A DNA stretch of 64,000 nt from assembly GCA_945878865.1 (NCBI GenBank), contig CAMCUD010000015.1, positions 1 to 64,000 on the forward strand, written 5' to 3'. How positions within the stretch are numbered: position 1 is the stretch's first letter; every line of letters begins with the position of its first letter. Made by a program: the position numbers and the translations under genes. This document shows positions 41,156 to 62,664 of the stretch, in pieces. A model generated the notes under the pieces. That model saw only the letters and a list, made by a program, of their open reading frames with translations, had not been told where the DNA came from and searched no databases. This DNA is from Bifidobacterium breve (GTDB lineage: Bacteria > Actinomycetota > Thermoleophilia > Solirubrobacterales > Solirubrobacteraceae).

Positions 41156-42796
41156 ATGACCACCGCCACGCAATCCGGTCAGCGCGTCGAAGTCGCTCGG
41201 ATCCACATCCCGGAGAACATCCGCGGGCTCGACGACGAGCACGTCGCGGCCCTCGCGGGCTCCATCCAGCTGCAAGGGGTCCTCGTCCCACTGGTCGTCC
41301 GGGAGATCGCGGACGGCTACGAGCTCGTCGCCGGATTCCACCGCATCGCCGCCGTCCAGTCCCTCGGCCTGACCGAGGTGCCCGTCGTCATCCGCGAGGC
41401 CGACAACGAGGACGCCGACCGCGCGGTCGAGAACATCGCGCGCAAGCAGCTCAACCCGTACGAAGAGGCCAAGGCGGTCAGCGCAATGCTCGCCCGAGGC
41501 TTCAGCGAAGACGGGACCGCGCAGGCCCTCGGCTGGTCCAAGGCCCGCATCACCGCGCGGATGAAGATCCTCGAGCTGCCCGAGCGCGCGCAGGAGATGA
41601 TCGGCGAGAACCTGATCCCGCTCAGCGCCGTCGACCAGCTGCGCTCGATCGGCACCGTCTCGCCCGACCTGCTGGACCTCGTCGTCCGCTACCTCGACGG
41701 CGACAACGCGTGGGCGGCCGAGCGACTCGCGCGCGAGCCCGGCTGGGTGCTCGACGCGGCCATGTCGCAGGGCGAAGACCGGCGCGTATTCGCCGCCTAT
41801 CTCGACCGCGCGAGCGGGCACCAGATCGCCGAGCTGCGGCTCGGCAAGAAGACCGACCAGCTGTACGCCAAAGCCGACGAGCTTCACCACCAGCTCGACC
41901 GCTACGCCTATGGCCCGCCCGACATCCGCTTCATTGACGACGACATCGACCGAGCGCGCGCCGCGGGCGTGCTGATCGAGTTCGAGCACCGCCGGCCGGT
42001 CATCGTCGACCGCGCCGTCTACCGAGAGCTCGTCCGCGACGCGGTCAAGCGCACCGTCACCGAGCTCGAGACGAAAATCGCCGAGGCCGCCGCAGCCAAG
42101 AAGTCGGCCCGCTCCACCGCGAAGCCGGCCGATCCCGTAGCCGTCGCCAAGCGCGAGCGCGACGGCCAGCTGCGCGAGCTCGCCGACCAAGCGCACAGCG
42201 TCAACCTCGACCTCGGCCACGCGCTGCTCCACGACCTGGCCGCCGTTGACCCCACGGACATGAACGTTGCCCGGTTCTTCGTCTACGCGCTGCTCGGCGC
42301 TGACCACGACAGCTCCCCGTACACGCAGACCGGCGAGCGCATCGTCCGGATCGCCGCGGGCGGCGTCCGTCTCATGGTCGAGGAGCTGCGCACCGACGTC
42401 ACGAAGACCAAGAAGGACGGCAGCCGCGGCCGGCTGCGGATCGACTACGGCGATCACCGCGACCCGCAGGCCGCGATCGCCTGGCTATGGAAGTTCGTCG
42501 ACGGCGCGAAGACCGCGGGCGAGCTCTACGGCCGGGCGCTCGTCGTCATCGCCGCCGAGCAGCACGCGAGCCGGCTCGTCGTCAGCCCGAGTCAGCGGAC
42601 GCCGGCGACCCGGTGGAGCTCCCACAAGGACCACGCCGAGAAGGCGCTGCGGAAGCTCGCGGGGCCCCACGTCCCGGCGTCCCTGACGAAGCTCGAGCGG
42701 TCCGTCAAGCGGGTGCATGCGGCGTACGAGCGCGCGGAGACCGAGGCGCGCACCAGCGGTGGCACGTTCTCCTCGGACGAGGAGCGCGCCGCGTAG
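41156..42796 (+). CDS. ParB/Spo0J-like nuclease-domain protein
   Basis: 546 residues. The N-terminal ParB domain shows VARIHIPENIRGLDDEHV, SIQLQGVLVPLVVREI, YELVAGFHRIAAVQSLG and NEDADRAVENIARKQLNPYEEAKAVSAML (boxes I-II), then an HTH-like AQALGWSKARITARMKILELP. The long C-terminal half (residues about 210-546) is not recognised. Such large ParB-like proteins occur in actinobacterial plasmids and integrative elements; no ParA is nearby, so a role in segregation is uncertain. Good Shine-Dalgarno CAGGAGGA. Confidence 0.85.
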   Translation: MTTATQSGQRVEVARIHIPENIRGLDDEHVAALAGSIQLQGVLVPLVVREIADGYELVAGFHRIAAVQSLGLTEVPVVIREADNEDADRAVENIARKQLNPYEEAKAVSAMLARGFSEDGTAQALGWSKARITARMKILELPERAQEMIGENLIPLSAVDQLRSIGTVSPDLLDLVVRYLDGDNAWAAERLAREPGWVLDAAMSQGEDRRVFAAYLDRASGHQIAELRLGKKTDQLYAKADELHHQLDRYAYGPPDIRFIDDDIDRARAAGVLIEFEHRRPVIVDRAVYRELVRDAVKRTVTELETKIAEAAAAKKSARSTAKPADPVAVAKRERDGQLRELADQAHSVNLDLGHALLHDLAAVDPTDMNVARFFVYALLGADHDSSPYTQTGERIVRIAAGGVRLMVEELRTDVTKTKKDGSRGRLRIDYGDHRDPQAAIAWLWKFVDGAKTAGELYGRALVVIAAEQHASRLVVSPSQRTPATRWSSHKDHAEKALRKLAGPHVPASLTKLERSVKRVHAAYERAETEARTSGGTFSSDEERAA

Positions 42797-42810
42797 CGCG
42801 CTGCGGCGCG

Positions 42811-42873
42811 CGGGCCGATCGCCACCCGAGCGTGGCACGCCCTGGCGGGCGTGCGGGCGGCGAGACTTCGGCC
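42811..42873 (+). promoter_or_regulatory. Structured leader type 2, copy B (before ardC-like gene)
   Basis: GGGCCGA/TCGGCCC, GCCACCCG/CGGGCGGC (one A-C mismatch), GCACGCCC-TGGC-GGGCGTGC inner stem (perfect 8 bp here, interrupted in copy A). Ends exactly 39 bases before ATG 42913, as in copy A. Confidence 0.75.
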
Positions 42874-42912
42874 CGCGCACCCGGCGCGGGCGACCCGAAG
42901 CAGGAGCCCGTC

Positions 42913-43818
42913 ATGGCCCGCCGATCCACGAAGAAGTCCCTCTCGCCCGCCGAACGCGAGGCGCGTCGCAAGGCCGACCGCGAGCGCCTCGAGCAGGCGG
43001 CTCGCGCTCTCCTGACCACGGACGGATGGCAGCGCTGGATTCGCGTGCGCGCGCGCAACGGCCTCTCGCGCTACAGCGTCGGCAACCAGCTGCTCATCGC
43101 CATTGACTGCCACCTGCGCGGGATCACGCCGACCTACGTCGCCGGCTTTCGCACCTTCCTCGACCTGAACCGCTGCGTGCGCAAGGGAGAGCGCGCGATC
43201 AAGATCCTCGCGCCGTGCCCGGTCAAAGAGCGCGACGACACCGGCGAGGAGACGGGGGAGAGGAAGGTCTTCTTCCGGTCCGTTCCCGTCTTTGACGTGA
43301 GCATGACCGAGCCGCTCCCGGGGAAGGAAGCCATCGCGCTCGAGCCGCCCTGCGAACCGATCATCGGCGAGAGCCACCAGCACCTGGTCGGGCCGCTCGT
43401 CGCGCTCGCCTCTGACCTCGGCTACGCGGTCGAGTTCCGCGACCTCCAGGAGCACGGGCCGCAGGGCTGGTGCGACGCGAAGGCCAAGCGGATCGTCATC
43501 GCGAGCGGTCCGGCCAACGGCCAGGTCCGAACCCTCACACACGAGATCGCGCACGCACTCGGCATCGGATACGAGCAATACGGCCGCGAGCACGCCGAGG
43601 TCCTCGTCGACTGCGTCACCTATGTCGTCTGCTCGTCGGTCGGTCTCGACATCGGCGGCGAGTCCATCCCCTATGTCGCCGGCTGGGGCGAAGACGGAGC
43701 CCTCGAAGCCGTCCGCGAGTACGCCGACACGGTGGACGCGCTCGCCCGGCGCATCGAAGACGCCCTGACGGCAAGCAGCGAGCCGGCACCGGCGGACCTC
43801 CCCGAGTCGATCGCCTAA
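42913..43818 (+). CDS. ArdC-like antirestriction/ssDNA-binding metallopeptidase-fold protein
   Basis: 301 residues. The N-terminal region (YSVGNQLLIAIDCHLRGI... RTFLDLNRCVRKGERAIKIL) matches the ArdC ssDNA-binding domain (DUF1738), and the C-terminal half is an ImmA/IrrE-like zincin with HEIAH at residues 210-214 and a second acidic region GREHAEVLVD. In plasmids ArdC protects entering DNA from restriction. The protein is shorter than classical ArdC but has both parts. The upstream leader type 2 may control it. Confidence 0.82.
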   Translation: MARRSTKKSLSPAEREARRKADRERLEQAARALLTTDGWQRWIRVRARNGLSRYSVGNQLLIAIDCHLRGITPTYVAGFRTFLDLNRCVRKGERAIKILAPCPVKERDDTGEETGERKVFFRSVPVFDVSMTEPLPGKEAIALEPPCEPIIGESHQHLVGPLVALASDLGYAVEFRDLQEHGPQGWCDAKAKRIVIASGPANGQVRTLTHEIAHALGIGYEQYGREHAEVLVDCVTYVVCSSVGLDIGGESIPYVAGWGEDGALEAVREYADTVDALARRIEDALTASSEPAPADLPESIA

Positions 43819-45036: not shown

Positions 45037-45447
45037 CTATCGCGTCGGCGCGACGTGGAGGACCGGAAGTGACGTGATCGCCGTGCCGGTCTCCGCAGAG
45101 AACAGGCCGCAGAGATCGAGATCGTCGCAGCCACATGACGTTGCGGTCGCGAGCCAGCCGCGAATGATCTGTGCGCGTGCGATCAGTGCGTCGACGTCGG
45201 GCAGCTTGCGTACGGCGAGCGCCTGAAGCTGTTCATGGGCGGGTTGCCCGTCCCCGGTCGAGGCGAGCAGGACCTTGATCTCGTCGAGTGTGAACCCAGC
45301 GTGCTGGGCGACGCTGATGATGCGCAGCCGAGTGAGTGTGTCCTCGGAGTAGCGTCGCTGCCCGCTAACTCGGACGGGCGTGGGGAGGACGCCGTTTCGC
45401 TCGTAGTAGCGGATGGCTGAAGCATTGATGCCGGCGTCCTGCCGCAA
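45037..45447 (-). CDS. MerR-family transcriptional regulator
   Basis: 136 residues from a TTG at 45447. The HTH and wing read INASAIRYYERNGVLPTPVRVSGQRRYSEDTLTRLRII, the dimerisation helix DVDALIARAQIIRGWLATA, then SCGCDDLDLCGLF, a C-x-C-x5-C cluster that resembles the SoxR/metal-sensor cysteine region without its first Cys. The first DNA-binding helix is shorter than in other MerR proteins (normally MxIGELAxxAGV); no ATG or GTG is available upstream in this frame, so either the TTG is used or the N-terminus has decayed. Confidence 0.75.
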   Translation of the reverse strand: MRQDAGINASAIRYYERNGVLPTPVRVSGQRRYSEDTLTRLRIISVAQHAGFTLDEIKVLLASTGDGQPAHEQLQALAVRKLPDVDALIARAQIIRGWLATATSCGCDDLDLCGLFSAETGTAITSLPVLHVAPTR

Positions 45448-45624
45448 TCGTGATCGCGCGCGTTCGCGCGACGCTCGCCGTTGTGGCCCGCGCGCCCTGC
45501 ATCCAGAGCGGGTGCAGCCCCATCTACGACGGGGCGTAGTTGATATCCGTCCAGCGGTCACGGAACCGCTCGGTAGGGGCCCGTCGCCTGCCGACCAACA
45601 GGGTGTCGTTCCCTCTCCGGACCC

Positions 45625-46089
45625 ATGAAGAAGAAACTCCCCATCATCCTCGTCGCTGCGCTGCTTCTTGCCGGCGGCGTCTACAAGTTCGCCCTGGCGG
45701 AACCCGCAGCGAAGCCGAAGCACAAGATCGAAGGGGAGGTCTACGTGCTCCCGACCGAGTTCGTCGTCAACCTTCGAGACGGTCGGTTCGCCAGGCTCAA
45801 CGTCGGGCTGATCTTCGACCACAGCTACTCGTCGGCCATTGCGGCCGAAGAGGCTGCGAAGCACGCAGGGGGCAAGACTGCCGCAAAGCTGGTGGAAGGC
45901 TTCGGCATCCTGCCTCAGGAGCCGTTCGTTCGGGACATCGTCACCGACACGCTCTCAGCTTCAACCGCGGGCCAGATCGCCTCTCGCGAGCGACGCGAGC
46001 GGCTGAAGAAGCGGATCGCTCGCAAGATCAACAAGACGACCGACGTCAAGGTCGAAGAGGTGCTCTTCACCGACGTCGCCGTCCAGTAG
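45625..46089 (+). CDS. FliL-like membrane protein
   Basis: 154 residues: one N-terminal transmembrane segment (LPIILVAALLLAGGVYKFAL) and a periplasmic-type domain with VYVLPTEFVVNLRDGRFARLNVGLIFD, DIVTDTLS and KINKTTDVKVEEVLFTDVAVQ, the usual FliL pattern. FliL stabilises flagellar stators, but no flagellar gene lies in the window, so another role or remnant motility locus is possible. Confidence 0.8.
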   Translation: MKKKLPIILVAALLLAGGVYKFALAEPAAKPKHKIEGEVYVLPTEFVVNLRDGRFARLNVGLIFDHSYSSAIAAEEAAKHAGGKTAAKLVEGFGILPQEPFVRDIVTDTLSASTAGQIASRERRERLKKRIARKINKTTDVKVEEVLFTDVAVQ

Positions 46090-46093
46090 CTCG

Positions 46094-46729
46094 TCAGGGC
46101 ACGAGTTCAGGCGCCTGATCGACGAAGCGGCCGCGGAACGCGCGAACCGCGTCGAGCGACGGCTCATCGGCGCCGGCGCACGTGATCGCGCGCGTCCAGG
46201 TTGTCGCGGCGAGGGCAGGACGCATCTCCGTGTTGTTCTGGACGAGAACCGTGTGGTAGCCGGGGGAGCCCTTGACGGGTTCGGCGACGAGCTCCTCGAG
46301 GGCGAGCCGACGATCCTCCGCGATGCCGGGCCGATACTGAATGACGACCCGGCCGTGCTCCAGCGTGTGGACGAGAGCTTCGGGGCTCGGCTCGTTTCCC
46401 GGTTCATAGATGCCGTCCTGCGCCGGCTCCGGTGCGTGGTCTCCGGACGTCGGCGGATTCGTGCCGTACGAGATACGCCGCGTCGTGTGTTCCGCGCCTT
46501 CGTCGGGGTGCTCGCGGACACTGCAGTTCGCCGCCTTGGCCATGGACGAGAGGCTTGACTTATCGCCATTGACGTCGTCGCCGGTCGATGCATCGCCGAC
46601 GTTCAGTACGCGAGCCGCGACGATGACCACCACGAGGATCGCGGCCGCCGACAGGGCGGCGAGCATCGGCCGATGGCGTCGATTCGGCTCCGCAACGTCG
46701 GCGGTGGGGTCGTCGGCGTGGTCAGGCAC
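46094..46729 (-). CDS. DUF3105 family membrane-anchored protein
   Basis: 211 residues from GTG 46729. One transmembrane segment (MLAALSAAAILVVVIVAARVL), then the DUF3105 core: HTTRRISYGTNPPTSGDHAPEP, YEPGNEPSPEALVHTLEHGRVVIQYRP. Histidines in these motifs may bind metal. Members often occur near copper or cytochrome genes. The dyad CTACTAC-N5-GTAGTAG lies 11 bases upstream of the start. Confidence 0.82.
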   Translation of the reverse strand: MPDHADDPTADVAEPNRRHRPMLAALSAAAILVVVIVAARVLNVGDASTGDDVNGDKSSLSSMAKAANCSVREHPDEGAEHTTRRISYGTNPPTSGDHAPEPAQDGIYEPGNEPSPEALVHTLEHGRVVIQYRPGIAEDRRLALEELVAEPVKGSPGYHTVLVQNNTEMRPALAATTWTRAITCAGADEPSLDAVRAFRGRFVDQAPELVP

Positions 46730-46739
46730 CCCCGGAATT

Positions 46740-46758
46740 CTACTACGGTGTGTAGTAG
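46740..46758. promoter_or_regulatory. BlaI-type dyad, site A
   Basis: CTACTAC-GGTGT-GTAGTAG, perfect 7-bp arms and 5-bp spacer, just upstream of the DUF3105 gene and after the M56 stop. The same dyad lies before blaI-like/CDF (48054), the ICMT-like gene (50861) and the lipoprotein/M23 pair (51977, 52024). Confidence 0.8.
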
Positions 46759-46762
46759 GCAG

Positions 46763-47644
46763 TCAGGCGGCGCGTACGGTCCTGTGGCGGAGGGCGCCGA
46801 TCAGGAGGATCGGCGTCATCGCCAGCGCGAGCCCGACGACAGCGTGCGGCGCGACGACCAGCACAGCCACGCTGCCTCTCGCCGCGCCCATGGCGACCGC
46901 TGCGGTCGCCCCGGCCAGGCCCGTCATCGCCACTGCGGCCCAGAACAGCGGGGTCAGGGGGAGGTCAACGCCCTGGCCCGAGCCACAGAGTCGATCGACT
47001 CTCTGGGGGGCGACGCCGGCTCCAGCGTCGTCGAACACCAACAACGCTGCCGCGAGCGCGCGCCGGCGATCGGGCGTCTCGCACGCAGCGTCGTCCGCAG
47101 CGAACTCTGCGAGATCGGCATACCGATCGAGCAGGCGACGGAGGACTGGGAGGAAGAACAGACCGCTCGCGGCGCTCGCCGCGAGGACCAGGCGAAGCGG
47201 GTCGCGGCGCACGGCGTGGTGGCGCTCGTGTGCGATCACGCTGGCGAGCTCATCCGGCTCGAGGGCGGTGGTCGCCCCGGCGCTGACGTAGATGCGTGGG
47301 CGGAGCAGCCCTGCGCAGAAGGCGCTCGGCCGGCTGCCTTCGACGATCACGACGTCATCGCGACACGCAACCGGTCTCAGATTGCTCGTCACACGGCAGT
47401 GGGCTCGGACGAGGCGCAGAAAGGTCACGGAGAACCGGGTGGTTGCGACCGCGCCCAGCGCGAGGAGCGCGAGGCATCCCGACGCCAGGACGTCGTGGCG
47501 CGACAGCAGGTCGGCGCAGGCACCGCCAAGCCCGGGATCCAGCCGAAAACGCGTCGCCGCGACGCCGACGGCAATGCCGACGACGAGCGCGCCGAGCACG
47601 ACGATCGACGCATGCAGTCGATAGAGACGGCGCGCGTCAGTCAC
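46763..47644 (-). CDS. M56 family (BlaR1/MecR1-like) membrane metallopeptidase
   Basis: 293 residues from GTG 47644. Three or four transmembrane helices surround IAHERHHAVRRDP, the HExxH zinc site. In the BlaR1/MecR1 family such peptidases cleave a BlaI repressor after sensing cell-wall stress; no penicillin-sensor domain is present here, as in actinobacterial versions. It overlaps the BlaI-like gene by 8 bases, so the pair forms a sensor-repressor unit. Confidence 0.88.
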   Translation of the reverse strand: MTDARRLYRLHASIVVLGALVVGIAVGVAATRFRLDPGLGGACADLLSRHDVLASGCLALLALGAVATTRFSVTFLRLVRAHCRVTSNLRPVACRDDVVIVEGSRPSAFCAGLLRPRIYVSAGATTALEPDELASVIAHERHHAVRRDPLRLVLAASAASGLFFLPVLRRLLDRYADLAEFAADDAACETPDRRRALAAALLVFDDAGAGVAPQRVDRLCGSGQGVDLPLTPLFWAAVAMTGLAGATAAVAMGAARGSVAVLVVAPHAVVGLALAMTPILLIGALRHRTVRAA

Positions 47645-48029
47645 GGCGCGCGAGGCGCTGCAGTCGGCGGCGCCGGTCAGGGTCAAGCTGAGACATCTCG
47701 CGCGCGAAGCTGACGAGCGCCTCGTCGCCGTAGCGCGCGACGAGCTCCTCGACATCAGCGGCGGCACGCCGCGCGCGGTACTCATCGGCGGTGAGCGCCG
47801 CCTCGTAGACATCGGTCCTGCCTTCGCGCCGACGGATTAGCAGCCCCTTGCCGTCGAGGCGGTTCATGATCGTCATGACCGTCGTGTACGCGCGCTGGCG
47901 CTCGTCGCTGGCGTTCAGCGCGTCCAGCGTCTGCCGGACGGTGACCTCGCCGGCGTCCCAGACGTGGTCCATGACGAGAGCCTCGAGCTCGTGGAGCTCA
48001 GGTGGCGTCTGCGGATCGGAGGGCATCAC
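47637..48029 (-). CDS. BlaI/MecI/CopY family repressor
   Basis: 130 residues. Winged-helix segment ELEALVMDHVWDAGEVTVRQTLDALNA and YTTVMTIMNRLDGKGLLIRRREG RTDVYEAAL, then dimerisation helices, as in BlaI/MecI and CopY. It sits in front of the M56 gene. Between its start and the divergent CDF gene lies the dyad TACTAC-TGTGT-GTAGTA (site B), so autoregulation is likely. Confidence 0.9.
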   Translation of the reverse strand: MMPSDPQTPPELHELEALVMDHVWDAGEVTVRQTLDALNASDERQRAYTTVMTIMNRLDGKGLLIRRREGRTDVYEAALTADEYRARRAAADVEELVARYGDEALVSFAREMSQLDPDRRRRLQRLARRD

Positions 48030-48053
48030 GTCAGAGTAATCGGCACGCGAGCC

Positions 48054-48070
48054 TACTACTGTGTGTAGTA
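48054..48070. promoter_or_regulatory. BlaI-type dyad, site B
   Basis: TACTAC-TGTGT-GTAGTA, 25 bases upstream of the repressor start and 45 bases upstream of the CDF transporter start. Same 5-bp spacer as site A. Confidence 0.8.
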
Positions 48071-48114
48071 CCTAGGGGCGGGTGCGACGCTTGCGCCTGC
48101 TGACCCGAGCGAGC

Positions 48115-49044
48115 ATGTCGAACCAGGCACATCATCACGATCACGCCGGCCACTCCCACGGGGTCAGTGCCGGAAGCGACACGCGGTGGCTGCTCGTCGC
48201 GCTCGCGATCAACGGGCTGTTCATGGGCGCCGAGGTCGTGGTGGGCCTCCTCGCCGATTCGCTCGCGCTGCTCTCAGACGCCGCGCACATGCTCACCGAC
48301 ACCTTCGCAATCGGGCTCGCGATCGTCGCGCTGCGGTTGGCCCGCCGTCCCCCGTTCGGAGCGTTCACCTTCGGGCTCAAGCGTTCGGAGATCCTGAGCG
48401 CGCAGATCAACGGCGTGGTGCTACTCGTGCTCGCGGGCGTCATCGGCATTGAGGCCATCGGCCGGATCATCGCGCCACCAGACGTAGACGGGGCGTTCGT
48501 GCTCTGGACCGGGGTCATCGGCGCCGGCGTCAACGGTGCGGCGGCATCGGCGCTCGCGCGCGCCAACCGCGACAGCCTGAACGTCCGGGGCGCTTGGCTC
48601 CACAATCTCTACGACATGCTGTCGTCCGTCGCCGCGGCCGCAGCCGGTCTGCTGATCGTCGCGACCGGCTGGCTCGAGGCCGACGGCCTGGCCGCGCTCG
48701 TGGTCGCCGGCGTCATGCTGATAGGAGGCTGGGGGTTGGTTCGCGACTCGGGCCGCGTGCTGCTCGAAGGCGCGCCGAAGGGACTCGACCCTCAGGAGAT
48801 CGGCAACGCGATGGCGCGTGTCCCCGGCGTGGTTGAAGTGCACGATCTCCACGTCTGGGAGGTCACGTCCGGCTTCCCCGCACTGGCTGCGCACCTCATC
48901 GTCGAACCGGACGCCGACTGCCATGGGCTTCGACAGCAGACCGCTGCACTGCTGCACGACCGGTTCGACATCGAGCACACGACGCTCCAGGTCGAGCATC
49001 GAATACACGCCGGTCTGGTGGACATCGAGATTCCAGATCCGTGA
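48115..49044 (+). CDS. CDF-family cation efflux transporter (ZitB/CzcD-like)
   Basis: 309 residues, six transmembrane helices. His-rich N-terminus QAHHHDHAGHSHG binds metal. The four-site motif SDAAHMLTD (helix 2) and LHNLYDML (helix 5) give the tetrahedral zinc site, and the C-terminal domain (VHDLHVWEVTSGFPALAAHL) is the usual CDF cytoplasmic domain. Exports Zn/Co/Cd; copper is less likely for this class. ATG 48115 avoids a spurious upstream start. Coupled to tlpA-like gene. Confidence 0.9.
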   Translation: MSNQAHHHDHAGHSHGVSAGSDTRWLLVALAINGLFMGAEVVVGLLADSLALLSDAAHMLTDTFAIGLAIVALRLARRPPFGAFTFGLKRSEILSAQINGVVLLVLAGVIGIEAIGRIIAPPDVDGAFVLWTGVIGAGVNGAAASALARANRDSLNVRGAWLHNLYDMLSSVAAAAAGLLIVATGWLEADGLAALVVAGVMLIGGWGLVRDSGRVLLEGAPKGLDPQEIGNAMARVPGVVEVHDLHVWEVTSGFPALAAHLIVEPDADCHGLRQQTAALLHDRFDIEHTTLQVEHRIHAGLVDIEIPDP

Positions 49045-49667
49045 CCACTCGCGCCGACTCTTCTCTGGGCCGTTGGTCGGTCGTCACGGTGATCGTCGTC
49101 ATGAGCGCGTCGCTGATCGCGCTCCTGCTCTACGGCGTACTCGGACGTCCGACGCAGAGCACGCTGGGCGACGCCCTCCGGCGCGGCGAAGCCGTCGCGA
49201 TGCCCGACTTCAACCTCGAGGTCCTCGTGCGAGGCGAGCTGCCTGCCACCCTCGCGCGAGCCGCGGGGCCGACGCTCTCCGACGGCGCGCTCAGTCCACG
49301 CGAGCTACGTGGCACACCCATGCTCATCAACGTGTGGGCCTCGTGGTGCGGCCCGTGCCGTGAGGAGTCGCCCGCGCTCCGGGCCGCGTGGGCGCAAGCG
49401 CGGCGAACGGGAGTGCTGGTGCTCGGACTCAATCAGCAGGACGTCCGTGCGGGGGCCCGTCGCTTCGCGCGGAAGGAGGGCCTGACGTACCCGAGCGTGC
49501 GCGATCCGACCGACGAGACGTCAAAGCGCCTCGGCGCGACCGGAGTCCCCGAGACCTTCGCGATCGACGCAGCCGGCCGGATCGTCGGACACCGGGCCGG
49601 GGCCATCGATCGGGAGACGGCGCTGGCGCTGGTGCGCGCCGCGTCCTCGGGGCGCATCGCCCGCTGA
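49041..49667 (+). CDS. TlpA-like thioredoxin
   Basis: 208 residues: transmembrane anchor (VVTVIVVMSASLIALLLYGVL), then a thioredoxin domain with the redox motif ASWCGPCREE near residues 102-111 and VPETFAIDAAGRIVGHRAG containing the cis-proline. Starts at the GTG overlapping the CDF stop. Reductant for periplasmic/extracytoplasmic thiols, perhaps cytochrome or metalloprotein maturation. Confidence 0.88.
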   Translation: MTTRADSSLGRWSVVTVIVVMSASLIALLLYGVLGRPTQSTLGDALRRGEAVAMPDFNLEVLVRGELPATLARAAGPTLSDGALSPRELRGTPMLINVWASWCGPCREESPALRAAWAQARRTGVLVLGLNQQDVRAGARRFARKEGLTYPSVRDPTDETSKRLGATGVPETFAIDAAGRIVGHRAGAIDRETALALVRAASSGRIAR

Positions 49668-49670
49668 CCG

Positions 49671-50279
49671 TCAGGTGCCGCGCAGCAGCACCTTGAGATC
49701 ACGCGCCATGTCCTCCGGGTCGTCGGTCGCGTTGTAGCCGACGCGCTGCATCCCCCGCGGATCGACAAGCGTGATCCTCGCCTGATGCTCGGACTCCGCC
49801 GTTTGCGGGGCGACCGCGAACCCACGCCAGACCGGCTCGAGCTGGTCGCGCGTCCCGAGGACGAAGCGGATGCGGCCGACGACCTTCTGGTCGAGGAGGA
49901 AGCGACGGGCGCGTGCTGGCGTGTCGCGCGGGGGATCGACGGCAACAGCCAGCGCGACGACGCGCTCCGCATCGTCACCGAGGCGCTCGAGCGCCCGGCG
50001 CACGAGCTGTGCCTCGATGGGGCAGCTGTCGCGACATGTCGTGTAGAGGAAGGCGACGACCACCGCGCGCCCGCGCAAGGCCCGCATCCGGATGGTGTTG
50101 CCACGCTCATCGGCAAGGGAGAAGTCCGGCGCCGGGACACCGGGCGGCATCAGGGCACCGCGAAACGGCGAGCGCGAGTCCGGTGGCGGCCGGCGGTCTC
50201 GATCGGGGATGACGGCGATGCCTGCGGCGGCAGTCGCGAGGGCGACGACAAGGACCCCGACCAAGTGCGCGCGGGTCAC
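49671..50279 (-). CDS. SCO1/SenC family copper chaperone-like protein
   Basis: 202 residues. N-terminal transmembrane/signal segment (HLVGVLVVALATAAAGIAVI), then FSLADERGNTIRMRALRGRAVVVAFLYTTCRDSCPIE with the CxxxC copper motif, and distal His in SEHQARITLVDPRG. SCO proteins deliver copper to cytochrome oxidase or act as thiol reductases. GTG 50279 overlaps the ICMT-like stop by 4 bases. Confidence 0.87.
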   Translation of the reverse strand: MTRAHLVGVLVVALATAAAGIAVIPDRDRRPPPDSRSPFRGALMPPGVPAPDFSLADERGNTIRMRALRGRAVVVAFLYTTCRDSCPIEAQLVRRALERLGDDAERVVALAVAVDPPRDTPARARRFLLDQKVVGRIRFVLGTRDQLEPVWRGFAVAPQTAESEHQARITLVDPRGMQRVGYNATDDPEDMARDLKVLLRGT

Positions 50280-50848
50280 GCGGGCTGGCGCAGAAACGGC
50301 GCGGCGATCCACGGCACGGCCGGCGTCGCGTCGCGGTACCGCTCGTACTCGGGGCCGAACGCCTCCGCGAGCTGCTCGTCTTCGATGCGAACGAACCGAT
50401 CGGCGAACACCACGAAGAGAAGGACGAGCGCGAGCGCCAGGAGACTGCGTCCACCGATCGCGGTGCCAGTCAGGACCAGCGCCCACCCGGTGTTCTGCGG
50501 GTGGCGACCCCATCGGTACACCCCGCTGGTGACGAGCCGCGTGGGCCGCATCTGGCTGAAGTCCGCCCGCGTGCCCAGCTGCACGCTGGAGACGAGGAAG
50601 AGCACGAACCCCAGGCCACCGACCACGATCCCGACGACTAGAGCAGGGCCCTCGGGGATCCCAACGAGCGCCATCTGCCCCCAGGCCGCCCAGGCCACCG
50701 AATCGGCGTGCAGCACGTAGAGCAGCCACGCGGCAACCGCGGACCTCGTCGTCGGTCCGCCGTTCTCGCGAAGGTCGGCGCGTGCCCAACGCAAGACGAG
50801 GGCCGCGAGGAGCACGAATACGACGATCGATACGGCGAACCCAACCAT
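50276..50848 (-). CDS. Isoprenylcysteine carboxyl methyltransferase-like protein
   Basis: 190 residues, about five hydrophobic helices. GVYRWGRHPQNTGW and EDEQLAEAFGPEYERYRDAT are the SAM- and metal-binding-like motifs of the ICMT family (bacterial members methylate unknown substrates). Upstream of it is the dyad TACTAC-GCCGC-GTAGTT (site C), 12 bases before the start. Confidence 0.83.
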   Translation of the reverse strand: MVGFAVSIVVFVLLAALVLRWARADLRENGGPTTRSAVAAWLLYVLHADSVAWAAWGQMALVGIPEGPALVVGIVVGGLGFVLFLVSSVQLGTRADFSQMRPTRLVTSGVYRWGRHPQNTGWALVLTGTAIGGRSLLALALVLLFVVFADRFVRIEDEQLAEAFGPEYERYRDATPAVPWIAAPFLRQPA

Positions 50849-50860
50849 CGGACCTCAGGC

Positions 50861-50877
50861 TACTACGCCGCGTAGTT
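50861..50877. promoter_or_regulatory. BlaI-type dyad, site C
   Basis: TACTAC-GCCGC-GTAGTT with the same 5-bp spacer and one mismatch in the second arm; upstream of the ICMT-like/SCO operon on the minus strand. Confidence 0.65.
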
Positions 50878-50939
50878 TCCACGAGTCTCGGCGACCGGGA
50901 ACTGGGCCACGAACAAGCTCCTGGGCTAGCTCGAAGCGA

Positions 50940-51965
50940 TCACAGCGCGCTTCGCAATGCCTGCTCGACCGCGTTGAAGCCGAACGAGCCCTCCAGCCGC
51001 GCCGTCACGCGGCCGTCGGCGCCCACAACGAACAGCCACGGCTCGGTCGGGACGCCAAAGCGCTTCAGCGGCTCGCGCAGTCCGCCATCGACCTGGTTGT
51101 CGACGTAGACCTCTTGGTGGATGAACTCGATCCGGTTGCCGTAGCGCTCGCGCAGCTGCAAGGCGATGTCAACCACAGGGCCGCAGACGCGCGACTGGCA
51201 GAGCTGCGGTGTCGCGAACAACAGCGCGACGGGCTTGCGCCCAACGACGTCCGCGAAGTCGGCGTCGTGCATGTCATCGGGCGGGACGCGGGTGTCAATC
51301 TCGCTGATGTCCGCAGTTTCGTCGGCCGTGTCCGTCGGAGTCCGCGGCGCACGCTCCCCGACGCGAACGACCGGGTCATCCCGGGCGCTGACCACCGTGA
51401 GGGCACCCGGCGAGGCCACGAGATCCTCGCCGACCTTCGTGACGGCAAGCACCGAGACTGCACCCGCCTTGGGCATAGGCACCTGCGCGGAGTAGATCGC
51501 CGCGAACGGGTCATCCTCCGTCGCCGCCTGCTTGCTGCGAAACGGCGGATCGGTCACCAGCAGATCTGCCGGGGCGGGGTACGGCCCGGTTGCCGGCGAA
51601 TCGGGCGACCGCGCGACGTACAGCGCCGTGGGCCCGTAGACGAATCCGGTCTTGGGGTCGATGACACCGAACGCGACGCGGTTGCGGCCCGGCGTGTACA
51701 CGCTGCCGGCGGCAGCGAACTGCGGGCCCGTCGCGCCAACACCATCGGCGACCTGCTGCAGCGTCCGACCCCGAACCGCGGGGAAGTCCGAAGCCCGCGA
51801 CGAGGTCGCGCCCCGAAGCTGCTTGCGGAGCTCTGCCGATGACGCGGCGCGCGGCTCGGTGTCGCCGGTCTCGGCGTCATCGGACCCACAGCCCGAAAAG
51901 AGTGCGGCCGCGAGCACTGCGGCGATACCGAAGCGACGCGAGCGAGAACGTGACGAAGGCAGCAC
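50940..51965 (-). CDS. Lipoprotein with C-terminal thioredoxin-like domain
   Basis: 341 residues from GTG 51965. Signal peptide with lipobox LFSGC (FGIAAVLAAALFSGC). The N-terminal 200 residues are not recognised; the C-terminal domain has LLFATPQLCQSRVCGPVVD, a CxxxxC in place of the thioredoxin CxxC, and VPTEPWLFVVGADGRVTARLEG with a cis-Pro-like site. Probably anchored outside the membrane and involved in redox or metal delivery. Preceded by site D. Confidence 0.75.
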   Translation of the reverse strand: MLPSSRSRSRRFGIAAVLAAALFSGCGSDDAETGDTEPRAASSAELRKQLRGATSSRASDFPAVRGRTLQQVADGVGATGPQFAAAGSVYTPGRNRVAFGVIDPKTGFVYGPTALYVARSPDSPATGPYPAPADLLVTDPPFRSKQAATEDDPFAAIYSAQVPMPKAGAVSVLAVTKVGEDLVASPGALTVVSARDDPVVRVGERAPRTPTDTADETADISEIDTRVPPDDMHDADFADVVGRKPVALLFATPQLCQSRVCGPVVDIALQLRERYGNRIEFIHQEVYVDNQVDGGLREPLKRFGVPTEPWLFVVGADGRVTARLEGSFGFNAVEQALRSAL

Positions 51966-51976
51966 ACGGTGGACGC

Positions 51977-51993
51977 TACTACGCGCCGTCGTA
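51977..51993. promoter_or_regulatory. BlaI-type dyad, site D
   Basis: TACTAC-GCGCC-GTCGTA, one mismatch in the second arm, 12 bases upstream of the lipoprotein start. Confidence 0.55.
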
Positions 51994-52023
51994 CGCGCCA
52001 GCGAATCGACGAGCCGATACATC

Positions 52024-52040
52024 TACTACGGCAAGTCGTT
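52024..52040. promoter_or_regulatory. BlaI-type dyad, site E
   Basis: TACTAC-GGCAA-GTCGTT, two mismatches in the second arm; on the M23 side of the divergent region. It lies 47 bases from site D, a spacing that could bring two dimers to the same face only loosely. Confidence 0.45.
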
Positions 52041-52116: not shown

Positions 52117-53052
52117 ATGTCCCGGGGCGAATCGGTCGGTCTCGGCCGTAGCGCGTCAGCGCAAGCCCGTCAGCTAACCCCGGAGGCTCGACGACGACCA
52201 CAACACCATCGCGTGCTGCGCCGAGCTGCCTTCATCCCGATCGTCGCCTCCACGATCCTGCTGATCTCGACCGAGCCAGCACAGGCGGAGGGCGGAGCCG
52301 CGGCGTTCGCCGAGCCCGAGCTCGAACGCATCGAGTGCGTCACCCCGAAGGGCGAGGCCTGCTCGACCGAACGGGTTCCCGCCGGCGCACAGGTGCGCAT
52401 GCTCGGGACGGACCTTCGCCAAGTGCGGCAAGTCGTGTTTCGCGGTGGGTCCGGCGGGCGCGACGACATCGCGGCGCGCGTCACCCACGCTGGAGCGCGC
52501 CACGCCGACGTCCAGGTACCGGGGAAGGCCCGCACCGGACCACTCGACCTCGTGGTCCTTGGTGGGACCACAACCCGCGCGGTGCGGCGGCTGGTCGTCG
52601 AAACGCTGGCGCTCCCTGCCGCGCAGCGCGACGACCACGTCTTCCCGATCCAGGGCCGCCACGACGTCGGGCAGAGCGAGACGAACAACTTCGGCGGCGG
52701 GCGAGGCCACCAGGGGCAGGACATGTTCGCGGACTGCGGCACCCCGCTGGTGGCCGCCCAGGGCGGGACCGTGCGGATCGCAAAGGCCGACCACCCTCGC
52801 GCCGGGAACTATCTCGTGATCACCGGTGCGACCAGCGGACTCGACTACGTCTACATGCACCTGCAGGCCCCGCCCACCGTCGAGACCGGCGACCCGGTGA
52901 CGACGGGACAGCCCCTCGGTGCGGTCGGCGACACCGGCAATGCCTCCGGCTGCCACCTGCACTTCGAGCTGTGGTCCGCGCCCGGCTGGTACCGCGGCGG
53001 CGCGCCCATCGACCCGCTCCCGCGCGTGCGGGCGTGGGATCCAGACCACTGA
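52117..53052 (+). CDS. Secreted M23 (LytM-type) peptidase
   Basis: 311 residues. A hydrophobic signal follows residue 33 (VLRRAAFIPIVASTILLISTEPAQA), giving either a long n-region from ATG 52117 or a GTG start at 52213. The C-terminal M23 domain has GHQGQDMFADCG (HxxxD) and SGCHLHFELW (HxH), the zinc ligands. Middle region (about residues 60-160) is a beta-rich domain of unknown type (IPT-like). Cuts peptidoglycan peptide bridges; with the BlaI-type dyad it suggests a cell-wall response. Confidence 0.87.
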   Translation: MSRGESVGLGRSASAQARQLTPEARRRPQHHRVLRRAAFIPIVASTILLISTEPAQAEGGAAAFAEPELERIECVTPKGEACSTERVPAGAQVRMLGTDLRQVRQVVFRGGSGGRDDIAARVTHAGARHADVQVPGKARTGPLDLVVLGGTTTRAVRRLVVETLALPAAQRDDHVFPIQGRHDVGQSETNNFGGGRGHQGQDMFADCGTPLVAAQGGTVRIAKADHPRAGNYLVITGATSGLDYVYMHLQAPPTVETGDPVTTGQPLGAVGDTGNASGCHLHFELWSAPGWYRGGAPIDPLPRVRAWDPDH

Positions 53053-56590: not shown

Positions 56591-56944
56591 ATGGGTGGCG
56601 AGCACACATGCGATCTTCTCTGCCTCGACCTCGAGAAAGCCGAGGCACTGCGAGCCGCGCTTCCCGCGTCCGCGGCGGTTGAGGCCGCCGCGGCCCGTGC
56701 GAGGGCGCTCGGTGACCCGACCCGCCTCAGTCTTGCGCTCGCGCTCGCGGCAACCGACGAGCTGTGCGTCTGCGACCTCGCGTGGATCAGCAGCCGCGCC
56801 GAGAACCTCGTCTCGCACCATCTTCGCGCGCTGCGCGCTGCCGGGCTCGTGACGAGTCGCCGCAAGGGCAAGATGGTCCTCTACGCGGTCACTGAGACGG
56901 GACACGCCCTTCTCCGCACGCTCAGGACCGAGGCGGCGGCATGA
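56591..56944 (+). CDS. CadC/CmtR-type ArsR-family metal repressor
   Basis: 117 residues from ATG 56591. Cys7 and Cys11 (HTCDLLCLDLE) and Cys59 and Cys61 (ELCVCDLAW) correspond closely to the four cysteines of CadC (C7, C11, C58, C60), which binds Cd, Pb and Bi. HTH: SHHLRALRAAGLVTSRRKGKMVLY. Should repress its own operon with the downstream transporter until metal binds. ATGA overlap with the transporter gene. Confidence 0.9.
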   Translation: MGGEHTCDLLCLDLEKAEALRAALPASAAVEAAAARARALGDPTRLSLALALAATDELCVCDLAWISSRAENLVSHHLRALRAAGLVTSRRKGKMVLYAVTETGHALLRTLRTEAAA

Positions 56945-57645
56945 GCGCGTCGCTGCCCTTGTCGGGCTCTCCGGCGACGGACGGCTCGACCGTCGAGCAT
57001 CTGGCCCGCCGGGCCCGGATTCTCTCCTGGTTGTCGCTGGCCTGGATGACCGTCGAAGGTGCCGTCGCGATCGGCAGCGGCATCGTCGCCGGCTCCATCG
57101 CGCTCATCGGATTCGGCCTCGACTCGGTCATCGAAGGCTTCGCGTCGATCGTGATCGTGTGGCGCTTCACCGGCGCACGGATCCACTCCGAGGCGGCAGA
57201 ACGCCGCGCGCAGCAACTCGTCGCGGCCCAATTCTTCCTGCTCGCCCCCTACGTCGCGTTCGAGTCCGTACGCGCGTTGGGCAGCGGAGAGCGGCCCGAC
57301 GAAACCATCGTCGGGATCGCACTGGCCGCGAGCTCGGTCGTGATCATGCCCATGCTGGGCAGCGCCAAGCAGCGGATCGCCGACGGTCTCGGGTCACCCG
57401 CGACCCGTGGCGAGGGGCGGCAGAACCTGCTGTGCGCCTACCTCGCCGGCGCGCTGCTCGTCGGTCTCCTCGGCAATGCGCTCTTCGGCGCCTGGTGGCT
57501 CGACCCGGTCGTCGGCCTGCTGATCGCCGGTGTCGCTGTGAAGGAGGGCATCGACACGCTCCAGGGCGAAGGCTGCTGCGCCGCACCGCCGATTCCCGGC
57601 GCGACCGCCTGCGACGACGACTGCTGCGCGCCGGAGCCGTCATGA
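56941..57645 (+). CDS. CDF-like cation transporter with Cys-rich C-terminus
   Basis: 234 residues, about six transmembrane segments (ILSWLSLAWMTVEGAVAIGSGIVAGSIALIGFGLDSVIEGFAS...). It resembles cation transporters of the CDF superfamily lacking the cytoplasmic C-terminal domain; a tail of GEGCCAAPP and CDDDCCAPEPS provides five cysteines for metal binding. Co-transcribed with the CadC-type repressor, hence a probable Cd/Zn/Pb exporter. Confidence 0.8.
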   Translation: MSASLPLSGSPATDGSTVEHLARRARILSWLSLAWMTVEGAVAIGSGIVAGSIALIGFGLDSVIEGFASIVIVWRFTGARIHSEAAERRAQQLVAAQFFLLAPYVAFESVRALGSGERPDETIVGIALAASSVVIMPMLGSAKQRIADGLGSPATRGEGRQNLLCAYLAGALLVGLLGNALFGAWWLDPVVGLLIAGVAVKEGIDTLQGEGCCAAPPIPGATACDDDCCAPEPS

Positions 57646-58271
57646 CCGAACTCGCGCTGGTCCTCTACGTCGCCTACCTGGTCCTCGCGTTCGGCCTGCG
57701 CAGCGTCCTGCAGCGCCGCCGGACGGGCTCCTCCGGCTTCCGCGGCGTCAGCGGACGACCCGGATCGGCTGAGTGGCTCGGCGGCGTGCTGTTCGTCGTC
57801 GCAGTCGTCGCCGGGCTGGCCGCCACCCTCCTCGCCCTACTCGATGTCGTCCCGACAATCGCCAGGTTCCAATCGACTGCCGCCGGGGTCGTCGGAGCGG
57901 CGCTCGTGTGCGCTGGGATCGTCCTGTCCCTCGTCGCGCAGCACGCGATGGGGGCCTCGTGGCGAATCGGCGTCGACGAGAGCGAACGTACGGCGCTCGT
58001 GACGACCGGGATCTTCGCCCTTGTGCGTAACCCGTTCTTCAGCGCGACCGCACTAGTCGCCATTGGCTTGGTTCTGATGGTGCCGAGCGTGCTGGCCGGA
58101 GCAGCGCTGATCGCGCTCCTGTTCGCGGTCGAGCTGCAGGTCCGGGTGGTCGAAGAGCCGTACCTGCTTCGTGCTCAGGGCGGCTCCTACCGCGAGTACG
58201 CCTTCAGGACTGGACGCTTTGTGCCCGGTCTCGGCAGGATTGCGCGCACCCGCGCGTCCCTGTCCGAGTAG
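57642..58271 (+). CDS. Isoprenylcysteine methyltransferase-like membrane protein
   Basis: 209 residues, five hydrophobic segments; GIFALVRNPFFSATAL and EEPYLLRAQGGSYREYA resemble the ICMT/NnrU-like methyltransferase motifs. Coupled to the transporter gene (ATGA). In actinobacterial genomes such genes commonly follow metal-efflux operons. Substrate unknown. Confidence 0.78.
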   Translation: MTELALVLYVAYLVLAFGLRSVLQRRRTGSSGFRGVSGRPGSAEWLGGVLFVVAVVAGLAATLLALLDVVPTIARFQSTAAGVVGAALVCAGIVLSLVAQHAMGASWRIGVDESERTALVTTGIFALVRNPFFSATALVAIGLVLMVPSVLAGAALIALLFAVELQVRVVEEPYLLRAQGGSYREYAFRTGRFVPGLGRIARTRASLSE

Positions 58272-58352
58272 ACGCGTCCTTCGTCCGATCTACCACGGCG
58301 TGTCGCAATGCCAGGGGCCGTCCGCCGCCGGTTGGCTGCGGGTGGAGGTGGG

Positions 58353-58694
58353 TCAGTGCATCCCCATGTCGTCGTCATGCCAGTTGTGCAGGCTTGACGC
58401 GATCCACCTGCCGTGCCTGCGGTAAGCGCGCACGTCCATATGACGCCCGGGATTCATGCTGTCCCAGTCGCAGTCATCCCACCGTGTGTCGCTGTTGGTG
58501 TGGATCTTGAGGGACCTGTGCGTCGTGGTGCGCATCCGGAACCAGTGGTGGGACTGGCTCGAAGAGGTCACCGTGCCGCGAAAGTGATGTGTGGGCCGCG
58601 CCGCGACGGCAGTGGCGGCACCGGGGCTCAGGGCCAAGGCCGCGACGAGCGTGAGAGCCGCGACCGCACGGCGGCCAGTCGATGCGGGGGGCAT
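58353..58694 (-). CDS. Secreted His-rich hypothetical protein
   Basis: 113 residues. Signal peptide AVAALTLVAALALSPGAATAVA, mature domain with many His (FRGTVTSSSQSHHWFRMRTTTHRSLKIHTNSDT, NWHDDDMGMH). Small beta-barrel-like domain possibly OB-fold. Metal binding by His/Asp/Met is a suggestion only. Confidence 0.65.
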   Translation of the reverse strand: MPPASTGRRAVAALTLVAALALSPGAATAVAARPTHHFRGTVTSSSQSHHWFRMRTTTHRSLKIHTNSDTRWDDCDWDSMNPGRHMDVRAYRRHGRWIASSLHNWHDDDMGMH

Positions 58695-58715
58695 TGGGAA
58701 AGCCTATGGCGCTGG

Positions 58716-59000
58716 ATACAGACTGGCGTCCGTACGAATCCGCAACCGTCCGAGCGTCGCGCCGCACTCTTCCGCGGGTTTGCCGACCGCGACCGCGTGC
58801 TCACCGTCGAGCAGCTCATCGGCGGGGAGCAGCGCGTCACCCACATCGTGCGCCCGACCGGACGGGCTCAGCCCGACGTATCCGCGCACCTCTCGTGCCT
58901 GTGGGATCGAGTGCGCACCCCGCGGGCCTGAGGTGCACTTCCGCCTTGCTGACGGGGTTGCCGAGCTGCTCGGCGGCCGCTGACGCGATCCTCTTCCGCT
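58716..59000 (+). pseudogene. Broken ArsR-type regulator gene
   Basis: Three consecutive frames carry pieces of one ArsR protein: ERRAALFRGFADRDRVLTVEQLI and GRAQPDVSAHLSCLWD (frame ending at 58931), then EVHFRLADGVAELLGG (frame ending 58983), then AAADAILF. A small deletion after CLWD, where ...CGLVxxERRGR... is expected, and frameshifts inactivate it. Confidence 0.7.
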
Positions 59001-59039
59001 AGGCGTCGGTGTTCGTGATCTGGGTTCTACCGGCTCTGC

Positions 59040-59245
59040 GTGCCTGATCAAGGCCCGTCAGGGCGCAGCACGCTTCCGGATGGCACCGATGTCGTTACCG
59101 TGACCGGGATGCCGCAGCCGACCGTCTCCACCCACCTCGCCTGCTTGTGGGAGTGCGGGCTCACGGACCGCGAGCGCTGCGCCGAGGTGTACTACTCGTT
59201 GGCCGAGGGTGCGGAATCACGGCCGCGGCCGGGGGCTGAGGCAGC

Positions 59246-59249
<4 letters not shown>
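59040..59249 (+). pseudogene. ArsR C-terminal fragment before the P1B ATPase
   Basis: 69-residue frame; VTGMPQPTVSTHLACLWECGLTDRERCAEVYYSLAEG is the recognition helix, wing and C-terminal part of an ArsR/CmtR-type regulator; the N-terminal half is missing. Overlaps the ATPase start (GTGA). Could still be expressed as a truncated protein, but it lacks the dimerisation and metal-binding parts. Confidence 0.6.
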
Positions 59250-61192
<1,943 letters not shown>

Positions 61193-61290
61193 GGAGGTTC
61201 TCAAGAGTCCAGCCGGCTCCGTAGTTGGCCACCCAGCGGCCAGCGGGCCATACGGATGCGTCGCCCGACCGTCGCTGCGAGCCTACGGAT

Positions 61291-61926
61291 ATGAACCGGC
61301 GACTCACCTGCCTTCTTCTCGCGCTAGCTCTCGGCGCAGCGGCCCCAGCTCCGGCCTCGGCGTCGCTGAGCGACGAGGTCAGCGCGGGGCAGTCAGTCGC
61401 CCAGCAGCTGAAGGGCGGGAAAACGAGCTGCGAAAGGCTCGCCACGGCTGATTTCGAGCACCTCGGCGAGTTCGTCATGAACCGGATGACGGGTTCGCTC
61501 CAGCTGCACGGCGCGATGAACGAGCGGATGCGCTCCGTCATGGGCGCCGAGAACGAAGAGCGCATGCACGTCCTCATGGGCCGGCGCTACGCGGACTGCA
61601 CGTCGAGCGGCAGCGCCGGACCCATGATGGGGCCCGGCATGATGGGCGGCGAAGGCTGGAGCGACGACAGCACGTGGGGCTCGATGATGGACACGCGCGA
61701 CTGGGACTGGATGCGCGACGGCAACTGGCAGGACATGAGCCGCGCGGACTGGGAACGCGTCAGCGACCAGTGGATGGGACCCGGCATGATGCGCTCCGAC
61801 GACAACGGCTGGCGGGCGCGCGACTACGTGCTTGGCGGCCTCGGCCTGCTGCTCGCCGCAGGGCTCATAGGAGTCCTGTTGGCCTGGCGGCCGTGGCGCC
61901 GTCCCCGCGACGCCGCGACGCCGTAG
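61291..61926 (+). CDS. Secreted Met-rich membrane-anchored protein
   Basis: 211 residues from ATG 61291. Signal peptide RLTCLLLALALGAAAPAPASA, helical region with FVMNRMTGSLQLHGAMNERMRSVMG, Met-rich loop PMMGPGMMGGEGWSDD and WMGPGMMRSDD, then a C-terminal transmembrane helix (YVLGGLGLLLAAGLIGVLLAW) and basic tail. Met-Gly motifs suit Cu(I)/Ag(I) binding. No family assigned. Lies between the P1B ATPase and integrase remnant. Confidence 0.7.
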   Translation: MNRRLTCLLLALALGAAAPAPASASLSDEVSAGQSVAQQLKGGKTSCERLATADFEHLGEFVMNRMTGSLQLHGAMNERMRSVMGAENEERMHVLMGRRYADCTSSGSAGPMMGPGMMGGEGWSDDSTWGSMMDTRDWDWMRDGNWQDMSRADWERVSDQWMGPGMMRSDDNGWRARDYVLGGLGLLLAAGLIGVLLAWRPWRRPRDAATP

Positions 61927-62162
61927 CGCCTGGCGCGCGTGCTGCGGCCGTCGGTACAGGGACTTTCGTCGCCGTGGCGCCGCACGCGCGCGACCACGTC
62001 AGGAAGGTGCCCGGTCACGGCGCTCGTCGTGCGCGCCGACGCTGCGAGCCCATCCGCCCTGGCTGCCTGTCCGTCTCGGCCGGTGCGTCCGGTACCGACC
62101 GTCAGCGACCGAGGCCTGGATGGCGCGTATGGAGCAGGGACACTCGTACGAAGGGCGGGATG

Positions 62163-62620
62163 ATGGCCGTCATGGCCAAGCGCTCGTTCGGAACACGGGC
62201 CTTGTTTGTGCGCCTCGACGCCGCCGGTCGCGAGGCTTGGTACGGCCAGCGGCGAGTGGGTGACGCTCTGATCAAGCGCAAGCCCGGCGAGAAGCGCAGG
62301 CGTGCCGGGCGGACTGGTTTGACCAAAGCGCAAGCGGAGGCTGATCTCCGTCGGCGTATCACGGCCGAGCGGCCGAGCCCGGTCACCGCACGAGCGACTC
62401 TGTGTCCAGGACGGCCGGCGGCCGGTACATCGATCACCTCGCCGCACTCGGGCGAAAGCGTTCGAAGCTCATGGACTGCGAGTCGTATCTTCGCGTTCAC
62501 TTGGCGCCGTTCTTCGGTAGCAAGTCGCTGAACCGCATCGAGCCGCGCGACATCGAGGGGTTCATCTCGGCCAAGCGTCGTGCCGGGCGCGCGCCGAAGA
62601 GCATCCTGGCTCGAGGCGCT
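62163..62620 (+). pseudogene. Truncated, frameshifted tyrosine integrase
   Basis: N-terminal arm-binding part MAKRSFGTRALFVRLDAAGREAWYGQRRVGDAL... RTGLTKAQAEADLRRRITAERPSPVTARAT, then a frameshift near 62400-62430, then in another frame GRYIDHLAALGRKRSKLMDCESYLRVHLAPFFGS and LNRIEPRDIEGFISAKRRAGRAPKSIL. The entire catalytic domain is missing. It ends about 40 bases before a tRNA-His-like 3' fragment. Confidence 0.8.
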
Positions 62621-62664
62621 GCTGTAAGCGACGTCGGATGGCGATTACCGGCGTCAGCCCCGGG

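Follow-up and report, generated by a model that had tools for sequence, protein, structure and literature searches.

We analyzed a stretch of 64,000 nucleotides (positions 1 to 64,000 of contig CAMCUD010000015.1, here contig 15, of assembly GCA_945878865.1, recorded as Bifidobacterium breve with a GTDB lineage in the Solirubrobacteraceae), hereafter the window, in which copies of the dyad TACTAC-N5-GTAGTA surround a gene pair encoding a BlaI-type repressor and an M56 membrane protease. A sequence-only reading of this DNA had proposed that the BlaI-like repressor governs a local regulon. This proposal is strongly supported by our comparisons: around BlaI orthologues of other genera no intergenic palindrome is more frequent than this dyad, which lies between genes at 125 of 129 sites and follows the repressor. 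We further consider it probable that BlaI represses a copper and thiol regulon, and that the M56 protease senses extracytoplasmic copper or disulfide stress and cleaves BlaI. The operator with its conservation and spacing, the targets, the protease motif, the missing penicillin-binding protein (PBP) domain and the cysteine-free repressor were all established by sequence comparison.

With up to two mismatches the dyad occurs at six sites of the window, against 0.03 expected from dinucleotide shuffles of the window. All six, given here without strand, are located at gene starts, as had been claimed. Operator 1 (TACGACGGGGCGTAGTT, 45525..45541, two mismatches) separates a MerR gene from a FliL-like gene. 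Operator 2 (TACTACGGTGTGTAGTA, 46741..46757, exact) precedes the DUF3105 start by 12 bp. Operator 3 (TACTACTGTGTGTAGTA, 48054..48070, exact) is found between the divergent blaI and CDF genes and constitutes a palindromic TAC/GTA site in the repressor's own promoter, 25 bp upstream of blaI, which is kept in relatives. Operator 4 (TACTACGCCGCGTAGTT, 50861..50877, one mismatch) precedes the PEMT/ICMT-SCO1 operon by 13 bp. Operator 5 (TACTACGCGCCGTCGTA, 51977..51993, one mismatch) sits 12 bp ahead of the GTG codon (51965) at which a thioredoxin-like lipoprotein probably starts, and operator 6 (TACTACGGCAAGTCGTT, 52024..52040, two mismatches) occupies the M23 side of this divergent promoter region, the two sites (51977/52024) being spaced 47 bp. 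Operator 5 falls within the longest open reading frame of the lipoprotein (50940-52022), yet upstream of the GTG at 51965, which is the likelier start because the signal peptide follows it directly; its placement at a gene start is relative to this codon. Five of these sites had been listed by the sequence-only reading with correct mismatch counts and coordinates off by at most one base (46741 for 46740); the sixth, at 45525, was missing from that list. An overlap of operators with TANNNT -10 boxes was seen by eye at four minus-strand sites of the window but in only 32 of 148 site-gene orientations generally, and this claim was dropped.

We then searched all 79 contigs of the genome (4.96 Mb) by pattern. 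The exact dyad is confined to this locus, at 46741 and 48054. Eight places match with at most one mismatch, four of them in this 5-kb stretch and the remaining four within reading frames, and 52 places match with at most two. Where flanks were read on other contigs, 35 of 40 one- or two-mismatch matches fell within genes among the matches listed, and the five intergenic strays are approximately the number expected by chance. Counts per genome of matches with at most one mismatch, compared between genomes with and without BlaI, were dominated by conserved coding matches.

Conservation was examined by searching the BlaI protein against 60 relatives, from which 26 stretches were fetched, chosen for BlaI alone; gene calls in these relatives were simple, and their starts may be off by tens of bases. 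The dyad with at most one mismatch was found 27 times with a 5-bp gap, five times with a 4-bp gap and never in shuffles; gaps of 3, 6, 7, 9 and 10 bp gave no match in the 26 stretches, and matches at gap 8 are gap-5 sites read with a shifted arm. The constant 5-bp spacing noticed in the window thus holds around BlaI orthologues. The one-mismatch gap-4 sites come nearly all from three genomes in which BlaI is only about 50% identical. More distant BlaI relatives (loci L074, L077 and L078), with dyads of 4-bp gap, provide a natural series for the study of dimer spacing. A scan of named genomes added 79 further loci and identified one congener as Svornostia abyssi J379, which places the window in that part of the Solirubrobacterales. 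Exact or near-exact dyads beside BlaI are also present in Desulfosporosinus, Acidobacteriota, KSB1 and candidate-phylum genomes. A random spread of the motif through coding DNA had been named as the observation that would speak against a regulon; in the non-redundant loci around BlaI no more than four sites fall within a gene, whereas 125 are intergenic; for 109 sites a gene starts at a distance of 350 bp or less.

With no motif assumed, we also counted every perfect gapped palindrome in the intergenic DNA (136 kb) around BlaI orthologues of other genera, and TACTA-N7-TAGTA, the same motif, came first, with 22 occurrences against 0.008 expected. An earlier census on whole loci had been overwhelmed by GC-rich codon patterns, which the limitation to intergenic DNA cured. 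When a matrix was derived from 95 sites in other genera, the six sites of the window took ranks 1 to 6 in the 64 kb (scores from 32.0 to 17.5, the next being 13.6 and 8.6). This ranking is partly circular, its training sites having been gathered with the window's pattern, and this counts against our reading; the palindrome census is free of it. Individual sites are conserved at orthologous genes as well. An operator precedes the FliL-like gene in L057 (12881) and L058 (18184) too, the position of operator 4 recurs in L057 and L059, and the operator 5/6 pair in L055 and L059. In two congeners the FliL-like and PEMT/ICMT-SCO1 operators and the lipoprotein/M23 pair (46-47 bp apart) all recur. The dyad tracks the repressor rather than the other neighbouring genes. 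Single-mismatch matches in coding DNA elsewhere could suggest a chance or codon-driven repeat; shuffles, intergenic placement, gap specificity and conservation at orthologous genes already refute this explanation, to which we attach practically no weight. Another regulator, such as the MerR protein at 45037-45447, whose gene adjoins operator 1, might own the dyad. This is very improbable: the dyad stands beside BlaI in loci chosen for BlaI only, over many genera and phyla and mostly in the absence of that MerR, and a variant dyad, described below, goes with a BlaI paralogue that has Gln in its recognition helix.

The repressor gene (47637..48029, minus strand) encodes 130 amino acids. Its match to PF03965 (E=4e-21) spans the whole domain and scores 75.9 bits, where the cut-off is 22.6, and structural matches include PDB 2g9w, MecI and BlaI. 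Its recognition helix reads AYTTVMTIMNRL. The protein contains no cysteine in its 130 residues, and the C-terminal CxC metal-binding motif of the CopY subfamily is absent; CopY-type copper sensing by the repressor itself is therefore excluded. The gene of the M56 membrane zinc protease (46763..47689, minus strand; PF05569, E=6e-10; HERHH...E195) overlaps with its start the end of blaI. The two overlapping genes are an operon and form, at 46763-48029, a BlaI-M56 gene pair of the PetRP type. Residues H154, E155, H158 and E195, which make up the HExxH...E motif of BlaR1/MecR1-type proteases, are invariant in 38 homologues. The structure model (predicted local distance difference test score, pLDDT, of 84) has as its nearest, weak PDB matches BlaR1, Ste24p and other M48/M56 zinc proteases. 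The protein is 308 residues long and stops after its last predicted membrane helix (residues 280-307). It bears no C-terminal penicillin-binding sensor domain, M56/M48 being the sole profile matches, and for this reason beta-lactam sensing by the pair is unlikely.

The families of both proteins might still point to a sensor of beta-lactams or cell-wall stress of the BlaR1/MecR1 type, with M23 and other envelope genes as its real output. Such a role would agree with the M23 and FliL-like genes at operators, and with the second, paralogous pair of the genus, which sits amid CHAP, C39, M23 and methyltransferase genes. We regard it as improbable, given the end of the M56 protein at its last predicted helix, the failure to find a beta-lactamase or PBP gene among the targets, and the operator genes of other genera, which are mainly those of copper and thiol chemistry.

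Next to the operators of other genera we found TlpA at 7 loci, BNR lipoproteins at 8 and small Met-rich proteins at 6; Rieske proteins and His-rich secreted proteins at 4 each; CopC-CopD, DsbA-like thioredoxins, LGT, DUF305 and DUF4396 at 3 each; and P-type ATPases at 2. HMA chaperone and CcdA/DsbD genes also stand at operators in relatives, and in another genus (L104) a DUF3105 gene lies downstream of an operator. A family of small membrane proteins (67-82 amino acids, LACPxGMGxMMWFMxKGM) occurs at the BlaI operator in 11 loci (L060-L104); its members, for example L069 9377-9592, have no Pfam match and are possibly copper-binding. On the same contig as the window, outside it, a distal seventh operator (TACTATGACGAATAGTA, contig 15:107972-107988, L024 10972) is located between a CopC-CopD gene and a gene for a BNR lipoprotein that is 45-62% identical to relatives, several of which are at operators themselves. 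The regulon thus contains copper genes, as in the PetRP type of system: SCO1 in the window and CopC-CopD at the distal site. By manual count, and hence as estimates, CopD matches lie within 20 kb of this type of BlaI in about 5 of 48 cases (about 0.2 expected) and SCO1 matches in 7 of about 105 (about 0.4 expected). The types of operator-adjacent genes and this closeness of CopD and SCO1 to blaI indicate copper handling and extracytoplasmic disulfide chemistry as the common theme. The sequence-only reading had called its targets an unusual mix of functions; the metal and redox parts are borne out by the relatives, whose targets are mostly of copper and extracytoplasmic thiol redox, and the set is there not unusual but coherent.

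In the window itself, the genes that had been named as targets do stand at operators. They comprise the DUF3105 protein (46094..46729, minus; PF11303); the CDF cation efflux protein (48115..49044, plus; PF01545, TIGR01297), whose stop is overlapped, in an operon, by a TlpA/ResA-like thiol-disulfide protein (49041..49667, plus; PF00578/PF08534 and DsbE/ResA models); and the PEMT/ICMT-type membrane methyltransferase (50276..50848, minus; PF04191, PF04140), in an operon with the overlapping gene of a SCO1/SenC copper chaperone-like protein (49671..50279, minus; PF02630, E=2e-21). The lipoprotein at 50940..51965 (minus) gave no match to Pfam families, and its earlier label of thioredoxin-like is right because of its invariant C-x4-C-G-P motif (CQSRVCGP), in a C-terminal thioredoxin fold, and of the Foldseek matches of its model to ResA/TlpA structures (best E=9e-6). 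The M23 peptidase (52213..53052, plus; PF01551; its start is uncertain, 52117 being possible) heads a tight plus-strand run to 56386 with a CAAX protease, two unknown proteins and a cupredoxin-like protein. The list was incomplete, and to it are added the FliL-like membrane protein (45625..46089, plus; PF03748) at 45525 and the CopC-CopD and BNR lipoprotein genes at 107972. The MerR-family regulator (45037..45447, minus; PF13411), divergent from operator 1, is a possible target too. Just upstream of the cluster, ParB-like and ArdC-like genes (41156-43818) hint at an adjoining mobile element. Further downstream, a second CDF gene, a P1B-type ATPase (59246) and a DUF305 gene (62858) lie at 56941-63499, all without the dyad; the metal island therefore exceeds this regulon.

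A sensor of the extracytoplasmic thiol/disulfide state, or of quinone or cytochrome oxidase biogenesis, rather than of copper itself, would also account for part of these genes: TlpA, DsbA-like, CcdA/DsbD, thioredoxin lipoprotein and Rieske genes stand at operators, and most M56 homologues carry a pair of outer-loop cysteines. We hold it to be rather unlikely, since operators of relatives are also at CopC-CopD, HMA chaperone and P-type ATPase genes, with CopC-CopD here, and the second loop cysteine is replaced in this genus by His, which fits a metal ligand better than a disulfide. The window protein has C58 in the first outer loop and H282 in the second, the outward-facing loops being assigned by analogy with BlaR1. 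This pair of Cys and Cys/His is possibly a metal or thiol site, a lead only. Other points tell against a copper and thiol regulon. The M23 and FliL-like targets are envelope genes, nothing about the CDF and PEMT/ICMT genes is specific to copper, and the CopC frame at 107972 has an in-frame stop in this assembly. The association of the loop residues, which speaks for our reading, is modest: a Cys or His is present in the second loop in 22 of 22 homologues with the first-outer-loop Cys, vs 10 of 16 without it (Fisher p=0.003, relatedness uncorrected).

A second BlaI-M56 pair is located outside the window, 24 kb away (contig 15:71884-73222, L018 11885-13223), with an operator of its own, TCCTAC-N5-GTAGGA, at contig 15:71770-71786 (L018 11771). 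Its BlaI has TTVQT in the recognition helix where the first has TTVMT. Met or Leu is found in helices of the first kind and Gln in those of the second, the Gln having been read directly in aligned members only. The exact variant dyad was counted 18 times in 61 genomes; for 15 of these copies a second-kind BlaI lies within about 10 kb. The second pair of congeners is surrounded by five and four exact copies, and variant sites are found in congeners at P-type ATPase, M23, CHAP, C39, polysaccharide deacetylase-like, methyltransferase and FliL-like genes. We tentatively suggest, as a possibility that falls well short of our main proposal, that this group of M56 proteins may sense copper or thiols directly through the loop Cys and Cys/His, and that the genus may have two neighbouring, insulated BlaI-M56 circuits, distinguished by a single operator base (TACTAC vs TCCTAC) that Met/Leu vs Gln in the recognition helix would read, one serving copper and thiol homeostasis and the other the cell envelope.

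For the first pair, the copper and thiol regulon that we consider probable would work as follows, where binding, repression, cleavage and signal are what we infer. A BlaI dimer would bind TAC(T/G)AC-N5-GTAGTA at the six places of the window and the distal one, and would repress its own operon with M56 together with operons for copper handling, extracytoplasmic thiol-disulfide chemistry and a few envelope proteins. A signal from outside the cytoplasm, most likely an excess of copper or the disulfide stress that copper causes, would be answered by the M56 protease; once activated, the protease would cut BlaI close to the invariant Phe108 and so release the regulon. The passage from signal through M56 activation to BlaI cleavage is suggested by the conserved HExxH...E motif, the lack of a penicillin-binding domain and the position of Phe108, which an alignment with MecI puts at the cleavage position of the S. 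aureus BlaI, cut between Asn101 and Phe102 (PMC9834060).

Several known systems resemble this one in part. In Synechocystis, PetR/PetP combines a BlaI-family regulator with a BlaR1-family protease in a copper-dependent manner (Garcia-Canas 2021, via PMC7896320 and PMC12292863). The likeness extends to the adjoining genes, to copper-protein targets and to a protease for which copper sensing has been proposed; in PetRP, plastocyanin and cytochrome c6 are exchanged for one another in a four-protein regulon, whereas some six to eight operons of copper transport or assembly and thiol redox are predicted here. Copper control by a BlaI-BlaR1-type pair is thus already known in cyanobacteria (PMC7896320); the present regulon is undescribed in the literature searched, which yielded nothing specific on it or on the lineage. 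The operator is also known in kind and not peculiar to this locus. M. tuberculosis BlaI (Rv1846c) was studied in Sala 2009 (as cited in PMC8265638), and its regulon is wider than beta-lactam resistance, including ATP synthase (PMC5874750). Our protein belongs to the same family (the 2g9w match) and has the same type of operator, with different target genes, no beta-lactamase or ATP synthase gene being seen among them. In orthologues of the mycobacterial BlaI (83-93% identical to an Rv1846c segment), TACGAC-N5-GTAGTA or TACTAC-N5-GTCGTA stands in front of blaI at a distance of about 75 bp. Allowing one mismatch or none, 30 actinobacterial loci hold 20 dyads with a gap of 5, while gaps of 4 and 6 gave no match. 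With BlaI/MecI-BlaR1/MecR1 of Staphylococcus and Bacillus our pair shares the repressor fold, the M56 HExxH...E motif and the Phe at the cleavage position; unlike them it has no PBP sensor domain, and a gap of 5 where theirs is a TACA/TGTA core (TAC-GTA, gap 4). CopY/CopR (PMC7253601) is of the same superfamily with a similar half-site and the copper theme, although the TIGR02698 match is weak (40 bits, far under the cut-off of 122); it differs from our repressor by its CxC motif, where ours lacks any cysteine, by a gap of 4 and not 5, and in that ours has a protease gene as partner. Finally, C. thermocellum BlaI_0696 recognizes inverted repeats five nucleotides apart in DNA affinity purification sequencing, single repeats being used in electrophoretic mobility shift assays (PMC8457756). 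It shares with our system the five-nucleotide gap and paired sites at targets, but differs in its half-site, GTCTAT, and in its set of targets, which comprises one unknown gene besides its own operon.

Taken from sequence, this evidence suggests that in this soil-type actinobacterium the pair, a kind of switch usually associated with penicillin resistance, controls extracytoplasmic metal and redox balance rather than antibiotic resistance. If this is true, copper control by a BlaI-type repressor and a membrane protease would extend from cyanobacteria to a little-studied class of actinobacteria, and BlaI-M56 pairs could serve as metal or redox switches and not as resistance switches. Functions would then be predicted for DUF3105, for the BNR lipoproteins and for the small Met/Cys membrane proteins, and the two BlaI circuits would offer a clean natural pair for understanding how BlaI proteins choose their operators.

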